Shown: one piece after another, positions 17,293-18,804 of the stretch
How the letters are laid out: each line of letters opens with the position of its first letter
How positions within the stretch are numbered: the first letter of the stretch is position 1
Assembly: GCA_023205875.1 (NCBI GenBank)
Contig: CP060755.1
Coordinates: 992,001 to 1,056,000, forward strand
DNA from: Chloropicon primus
Lineage: Eukaryota; Chlorophyta; Chloropicophyceae; Chloropicales; Chloropicaceae
Direction: 5' to 3'
Length of the DNA stretch: 64,000 nt
Notes under the pieces: model-generated
Told to the model about the DNA's origin: nothing
Database searches by the model: none
What the model saw: only the letters and a program-made list of their open reading frames with translations
Position numbers and translations under genes: made by a program

Positions 17293-18402
17293 ATGGCAGT
17301 CAACCGAGACGACACAACAATGAAGGAGGAATATCTTTGCCTCGGCTTGATGAGTGGAACCTCGTTGGATGGCGTCGACCTCTGCCTCGCTCGTTTCAGG
17401 CCTGGATCGTGGGAGGACTTTGAGATCGTCGAGGCGGAGACGAGGGGCTACCCCGATTCTTGGCGAGCGCGCCTCAAGGGAGCTTTTGAGGCCAGTGGTG
17501 GCGACTCCGAGGAGCTCGTCCAGTTGCACGAGGATTACGGGACCTATCTTGGAAAGCTCGTCAAAAGCTTCCTGAGCGACAGGGGTGTCGATGGGGTGGA
17601 CCTGATTGCCTCTCACGGGCACACGGTGCACCACCGGCCCGACCTTGGTCTGACGCGACAAGTGGGTAGCGGGAAAGCGATCTGCGAGGAGACTGGGGTC
17701 ACGGTGGTGTCCAATTTCAGGGAGCAGGACGTCAAGTTGGGGGGGCAGGGGGCTCCCCTCGTCCCGATTGGCGACGAGCTCCTGTTCAAGGGCTACGAGG
17801 TGTGCTTGAACCTCGGGGGCATTGCTAACCTTTCGTTCTCGTCCGAAGGCAAGAGACTGGCGTTCGACATTGTCCCTGTGAATCTGGTCCTCAACCACTA
17901 CGCCGTCTCCAAGCTCGGCCTTCCCTACGACGACGGTGGCAGCACGGCGAGAGAGGGCGACCTCGTCCCAGCTCTGCTGGACGTGCTGAACGCCCTCGAG
18001 TTTTATGACAAGGCCTTGGGACCGAAATCGTTGGGATACGAGTTTGTGGTGGACACGATCTTCCCGCTCCTCGAGAACTCCGGGGTGTCGAGCACGGCGG
18101 ACGTCCTGCGCACGTTCACGGAGCACGCGGCTTGCCAGATTGCGAAGACGCTCAAGGGCACGGGAAAGTCCAGGGTGCTCGTTACGGGCGGCGGGGCTTA
18201 CAACACCTTCCTCGTGGAGCGGATCAGGACCTTGAGTGGTTTCGACGAGGTCTGCGTTCCTGACCCCGAGATTGTCGAGTTCAAGGAGGCCCTCATCTTT
18301 GGCCTCTTGGGCGTCCTCAGGCTCGAGGGGATCAACAACTGCCTGTCCAGCGTCACGGGAGCGCAGAGAGACCACTGCAGCGGCGACTTGCACCAAAAAT
18401 GA
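17293..18402 (+). CDS. anmK: Anhydro-N-acetylmuramic acid kinase (AnmK)
   Basis: In bacteria this ATP-dependent sugar kinase opens and phosphorylates 1,6-anhydro-MurNAc to MurNAc-6-phosphate during peptidoglycan recycling. The 369-residue protein has the family start LGLMSGTSLDGVDLCLARF, then HGHTVHHRP, NFREQDVKLGGQGAPLVP, NLGGIANLS, the catalytic Asp in AFDIVPVNLVLNHYA, LVTGGGAYN and a final FKEALIFGLLG. The FDIxPVNxVLNHYA form is, from memory, that of Bacteroidetes AnmK rather than the proteobacterial FDTGPGN form, which points to transfer. No MurQ etherase or other recycling gene is seen in the window. The second Met at 17320 is an alternative start. Confidence 0.9.
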   Translation: MAVNRDDTTMKEEYLCLGLMSGTSLDGVDLCLARFRPGSWEDFEIVEAETRGYPDSWRARLKGAFEASGGDSEELVQLHEDYGTYLGKLVKSFLSDRGVDGVDLIASHGHTVHHRPDLGLTRQVGSGKAICEETGVTVVSNFREQDVKLGGQGAPLVPIGDELLFKGYEVCLNLGGIANLSFSSEGKRLAFDIVPVNLVLNHYAVSKLGLPYDDGGSTAREGDLVPALLDVLNALEFYDKALGPKSLGYEFVVDTIFPLLENSGVSSTADVLRTFTEHAACQIAKTLKGTGKSRVLVTGGGAYNTFLVERIRTLSGFDEVCVPDPEIVEFKEALIFGLLGVLRLEGINNCLSSVTGAQRDHCSGDLHQK

Positions 18403-18471: not shown

Positions 18472-18804
18472 TTACTCGAGAAGCTCCGCCCCGCTCTGCT
18501 CCTCTTCTTCTTCAGAAGGGACGGCGGCTTTTGCTTTGCCCGTTCCCGTTCCCTTCTTCATGGCCCGGAGTCTGAGCCTGATCGGACCCTTGAAACCCCT
18601 CGGGTCGTCGACCACCTTGCCCTTCTGTAGGATCTCCAGTCGACCCTCCTCGACCAGGTCTCGCGCGACTCGCCGCGTCAACTCCATCAGCGGCCTCCAG
18701 TTCCGAGGCCGAACCCTCCTGGGTATCTCCGACGGTCAGCACGTCTTCCTCAACCCCCTCTCCTCCAACACCTCCACCATCGCCTCCCGGATCAACGACT
18801 CCAT
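18472..18804 (-). CDS. DUF3253 protein with in-frame TGA: candidate selenoprotein
   Basis: The frame from ATG 18804 reads 22 residues (starting MESLIREAMVEVLEERG), meets TGA at 18738-18736, and continues without another stop to TAA at 18472, 110 residues in all. The whole span aligns to the bacterial DUF3253 family: helix, then LRKTC-U-PSEIPRR (family: GKTICPSEVAR), then RNWRPLMELTRRVARDL, EGRLEILQKGKVVDDP and FKGPIRLRLR. The TGA falls exactly where the family has its conserved Cys, so reading it as selenocysteine at residue 23 is the simplest explanation. The function of DUF3253 is unknown; it looks like a small winged-helix. I could not draw a convincing SECIS in the downstream 200-300 bases. 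The tail is acidic. The stop is 69 bases from the convergent AnmK stop. Confidence 0.7.

Follow-up and report, generated by a model that had tools for sequence, protein, structure and literature searches.

In the available text of a survey of 137 algal species, algal selenoproteins comprise 42 families and three new families are named (PMC7539508). The elements that direct Sec insertion follow simple distance rules, with 10-13 nt between quartet and AA and 15-39 nt between AA and GA, as given in the accessible part of PMC2375036. SECIS elements of coding regions (Mix et al. 2007, as cited in PMC2397514) are described in the text available for PMC2397514 as functional in higher eukaryotes and less efficient than those of the 3' UTR. 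The function of the DUF3253 family (PF11625) is unknown according to Pfam. In the window (the whole stretch of 64,000 nt of Chloropicon primus DNA that was analysed), we find a DUF3253 gene with TGA in place of the near-invariant Cys of family members such as PDB 2NS0 (Rhodococcus RHA04536). The locus resembles the algal selenoproteins, as far as the text of PMC7539508 describes them: a conserved Cys position is occupied by TGA, the genome encodes Sec machinery, and a SECIS-like element lies downstream. As in the coding-region elements of Mix et al., the SECIS-like element lies within the reading frame; in contrast to those in the available text of PMC2397514, it belongs to a green alga, and no second SECIS was found in the 600 nt 3' of the TGA.

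Read on the minus strand from the ATG at 18804, the frame gives MESLIREAMVEVLEERGLRKTC, then TGA, then PSEIPRRV... (Table 1). The gene converges on a neighbour for AnmK (anhydro-N-acetylmuramic acid kinase), an enzyme known mainly from bacteria. Its presence in a green alga is a separate observation, and the gene was possibly acquired horizontally.

Table 1. Positions of the features discussed. Coordinates refer to the window, except for the three loci marked L003 to L005, which are numbered within each locus.
Feature	Position	Strand	Remarks
ORF of the DUF3253 selenoprotein candidate	18804..18472	minus	ATG at 18804; 110 residues; codon 23 = TGA; TAA stop 18474-18472
In-frame TGA, candidate Sec codon	18738-18736	minus	Coincides with the Cys in the C-P-S-E motif of the family
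DUF3253 (PF11625) domain, winged-helix fold	18568..18795	minus	Profile match spanning the TGA
C-terminal tail, residues 82-110	18475..18561	minus	Predicted disordered; encodes the SECIS-like element
SECIS-like core	18561..18512	minus	ATGA 18561-18558, 11 helix-II pairs, unpaired AA 18544-18543, 3-bp mini-stem, GA 18513-18512
SECIS-like element with possible helix I	18570..18499	minus	CUCC 18570-18567 and GGAG 18502-18499; minimum-free-energy fold of 18600-18480
AnmK, convergent neighbour	17293..18402	plus	PF03702, 2.5e-62; own stop TGA at 18400-18402
Probable thioredoxin reductase gene and SECIS after it	L003 1501-1557 and 1616-3049, contig 4		C-terminal G-C-TGA-G
Glutathione peroxidase (Pfam) with in-frame TGA and SECIS past the stop	L004 1501-1566 and 1612-2436, contig 4		
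Peroxiredoxin-like protein with SECIS past the stop	L005 674-1459 and 1501-1557, contig 5		G-TGA-P-L-C

With the TGA read as Cys, the protein matches PF11625 with 83.6 bits, well above the Pfam cut-off of 22.1, which places it in the family. The portion 3' of the TGA alone reaches 62.9 bits, so the 22 residues upstream and the TGA position together contribute about 21 bits. A PF11625 search of the whole genome (17,584,162 bases in 20 contigs) returned this locus as the sole DUF3253 match, at 79 bits, free of gaps and with one TGA inside it; no NCBIfam family matches the protein. The Cys column was followed through 133 distinct homologues, made up of all 23 matches of one search and the best 120 of 2550 matches of a second, which had scored 8000 candidates (10 sequences were common to both). 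Among these listed homologues, 130 have a residue in the TGA column, which is Cys in 127 and Ser, Thr and Val in one each; in the preceding column, 101 have Ile, 18 Cys and 11 another residue. The three sequences with another residue (P0014, P0016 and P0034) look like mistranslated intron/exon edges. They resemble eukaryotic exons cut near C-P-S-E, suggesting introns (or stops) at this point in other algae. The preliminary description had placed an in-frame TGA at the DUF3253 Cys with homology on both sides, and the gap-free profile match together with the 127 of 130 Cys residues confirms it.

Two named green algae, Monoraphidium minutum (P0033) and Chlamydomonas sp. UWO 241 (P0085), have T-C-C-P-S-E-A-P-R-R where C. 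primus, with the TGA read as Sec, would have T-C-U-P-S-E-I-P-R-R, and T-C-C-P-S-E-A-P-R recurs in the proteins P0006, P0026 and P0027. The green-algal T-C-C-P-S-E set against T-C-TGA-P-S-E in C. primus thus forms a plain Cys-to-Sec pattern. When 200 genomes of one bacterial phylum were sampled, 19 had a DUF3253 match, as did two further genomes; none of these 21 matches has an internal stop.

AlphaFold2, supplied with an alignment of 57 rows including the query, predicts a winged-helix fold with block-mean pLDDT values of 86-97 for residues 1-80 and of 50-55 from residue 81 on. A structure search with the predicted model returned PDB 2NS0 as its top match, which supports a winged-helix fold like that of 2NS0; no alkyltransferase was noticed among the 50 structural neighbours listed, a result that does not exclude one. 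The thioredoxin-like fold is common among selenoproteins, and the predicted winged helix sets the C. primus candidate apart from the many that have it. The C. primus protein differs from DUF3253 members such as 2NS0 in its C-terminal tail, predicted to be disordered, which is mostly absent from the bacterial rows of the alignment (these end near the domain) and dissimilar to the tail of P0004. In contrast to many bacterial members, it carries no DUF2256 domain. The gene neighbours of a bacterial DUF3253 gene (locus L019) gave no pointer to function.

The genome encodes much of a eukaryotic Sec system. A tRNA-Sec with the anticodon TCA (66.9 bits), SepSecS (418.7 bits, 8e-125) and SelD (305 bits) all score above their cut-offs, and a SelB-type factor matches SelB with 217 bits versus 122 for EF-Tu, under the SelB cut-off of 242. 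A PSTK-like match reaches 58.5 bits against a cut-off of 382 and is possibly KTI12, which was matched too. The machinery check proposed in the preliminary description thus found tRNA-Sec, SelD and the SelB-type factor (the last under its cut-off), with SepSecS in addition. At E ≤ 10, the Rfam model SECIS_1 (RF00031; gathering score 35) gave three matches in the whole genome, with 20.8, 20.3 and 19.2 bits. All three lie directly downstream of genes with an in-frame TGA, after the stop codon, and carry ATGA..AA..GA (Table 1). The L003 protein is a pyridine nucleotide-disulphide oxidoreductase by Pfam, and its terminus is one that we take to be a thioredoxin reductase tail, which makes it a probable selenoprotein; the L005 protein is presumably peroxiredoxin-like, a name given by its TGA motif alone. 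Because all three SECIS_1 matches follow genes with an in-frame TGA, the UGA codon very probably specifies Sec in C. primus. At the same threshold the model also has matches in 4 of 14 control genomes, so that such matches count only by their adjacency to TGA genes. The model is weak for C. primus, since a whole-locus Rfam scan of L003 to L005 at E ≤ 1 listed no SECIS_1 and thus missed the known elements. MAFFT did not bring the quartets of the three known SECIS into register, one run aligning ATGA only.

The preliminary description had expected a SECIS antisense to the 3' end of AnmK. The best candidate lies instead inside the ORF, 175 nt 3' of the TGA and ahead of the TAA. The inner hairpin of its core has a folding energy of -18.1 kcal/mol, and its spacings of 13 nt (quartet to AA) and 29 nt (AA to GA) fall inside the limits stated in the accessible part of PMC2375036. 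Antisense to AnmK, a site at 18296 (-12.0) was considered; it is weak and was rejected by the filter of the published-distance scan. The Infernal-type search that had also been proposed fared no better for the expected element: no SECIS turned up when Rfam was run on the window or on 2 kb. SECIS_1 run at E ≤ 10 on 101 nt around the hairpin alone gave no match, and the L005 element, the sole known SECIS run under these conditions, was detected at E 0.1.

The published-distance scan combined the distances stated in the accessible part of PMC2375036 with structural filters of our own and covered both strands of the window and of twenty 10-kb stretches (528,000 strand-bases). The hairpin is its sole match in the 600 nt downstream of the TGA. 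Equally strong matches number five in the 528,000 strand-bases, the candidate counted, or about 0.006 per 600 nt (roughly 0.6% of such zones); at ≤ -12, a less stringent level that corresponds to the known SECIS, the frequency is 0.06 per 600 nt (0.018 when only ATGA quartets are counted). The hairpin ranks first of 27 matches under a filter adjusted to the known SECIS, which was set after these and the candidate had been seen; when the window is scanned less strictly, it is second of 25 ATGA matches. The peptide itself favours such hairpins: among 20,000 synonymous recodings, 77 reach ≤ -18, 678 pass at ≤ -12 and 1122 pass the filter. Back-translation pass rates are about 3% for the candidate, P0002 and P0003, 1.7% for P0013 and 0-0.3% for 19 other homologues. 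We give this contrast no weight, because residue-shuffled tails pass at 0 to 5.6% and 3 of 15 exceed the 3.1% of the real tail. The 121-nt region 18600-18480 has a z of -1.02 against shuffles, 31 of 200 of which fold as well. We regard the hairpin as the probable, though not proven, SECIS of the DUF3253 gene.

Three relatives are represented by short predicted proteins that all begin past the TGA position, namely P0002 (99% identity, 65% query coverage), P0003 (82%, 61%) and P0013 (76%, 42%). Their shortness hints at the output of a gene caller that met a stop conserved at the TGA position; contig ends, introns or the choice of start codon could also account for it. P0003 retains the tail that encodes the SECIS-like element, M-T-K-G-T-G-T-G-E-A-K-A-A-V-L-S-E, and 697 of 20,000 random codings of it yield such a hairpin at ≤ -12. 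Orthologue DNA was sought in viral contigs, where the protein search gave no match and the DNA-pattern search one unrelated contig, and in genome contigs, where four bacterial loci and no algal relative were found.

A TGA where the family has its near-invariant Cys, a winged helix in the predicted structure, Sec machinery in the genome and a SECIS-like hairpin together lead us to infer that the ORF would be a functional gene for a DUF3253 winged-helix selenoprotein, with UGA 23 decoded as Sec by means of the intra-ORF hairpin, a reading to which we assign a probability of about 0.7. The most serious competing explanation keeps the Sec but moves the signal: a working SECIS might lie elsewhere, for example in a 3' UTR overlapping AnmK or in a form that our filters miss, and the intra-ORF hairpin would be an artefact of composition. 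The absence of any SECIS_1 score for the hairpin, the pass rates of the shuffled tails and the location of the three other SECIS, all 3' of the stop codon, speak for such an arrangement. The scan with published distances and structural filters finds no other match in 600 nt past the TGA, however, and the site at 18296 fails it, so that we consider a different working SECIS unlikely. The idea of a decaying gene or null allele, in which a Cys codon became TGA and the protein is truncated or starts at Met40, requires a single substitution from TGC or TGT, and a null allele could persist in C. primus, which is mostly diploid (Table 1 of PMC12301720). Yet the frame is unbroken on either side of the TGA, with no second lesion and with exact spacing relative to the homologues, and only one of the 29 single-base changes that could create a nonsense codon in codons 1-80 turns the Cys codon 23 into TGA. 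Nor does decay sit well with the relatives, since P0002, P0003 and P0013 likewise begin past this position and P0003, at 82% identity, has its downstream domain still intact; we judge it distinctly improbable.

Insertion of another amino acid at the UGA, or splicing-out of the codon within an intron, appears very improbable. An exon edge apparently falls near the motif in the eukaryote-like P0014 and P0034, but the exact spacing to the homologues leaves no room for an intron at the TGA, TGA serves as the stop codon of the neighbouring AnmK, and a Sec system is present. The view of the preliminary description that this is a candidate selenoprotein is supported by the Cys-to-TGA site, the Sec machinery, the three other genes with TGA and SECIS, and the SECIS-like element; the incorporation of selenium is a prediction.

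If the gene is such a selenoprotein, we propose that the Sec system of the alga would decode the UGA at codon 23, directed by a SECIS hairpin placed unusually inside the frame, in the low-complexity C-terminal tail. The Sec would then stand beside a Cys (C-U-P-S-E), just ahead of helix 2 in the winged-helix fold, and the selenol/thiol pair may switch a domain of a nucleic-acid-binding type in response to redox state or metal.

The literature searched contains no mention of DUF3253, in agreement with the preliminary statement that it is not a described selenoprotein family, and no joint mention of a winged helix and a novel selenoprotein family. DUF3253 is absent from the main text and abbreviation list of PMC7539508 and Chloropicon from its main text; its 'Hypo' family, left unspecified there, stays outside the comparison, as do the three hypothetical proteins reported in the accessible part of PMC2375036. 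The available text of PMC6627142 contains neither 'DUF' nor Chloropicon, and the available main text of PMC7678280 does not name Chloropicon. The main texts of the Chloropicon genome papers PMC12301720 and PMC6731263 are without any 'selen-' word, so that the selenoproteome of this marine lineage, judging by these main texts, seems unexplored. That the gene represents a new eukaryotic selenoprotein family, with Sec next to Cys in a winged helix, a SECIS within the CDS and, in a marine picoalga, a DNA- or RNA-binding domain under selenol-based redox control, is in our estimate an evenly balanced proposition.

New selenoprotein families are seldom reported. A SECIS within the CDS, with no second one found in the 600 nt past the UGA, would be an unusual arrangement and is directly testable. 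For this bacterial-type winged-helix family as a whole, the Sec form, if true, would suggest that the near-invariant Cys of DUF3253 is catalytic or redox-active, and would thereby offer a clue to the function of the family.
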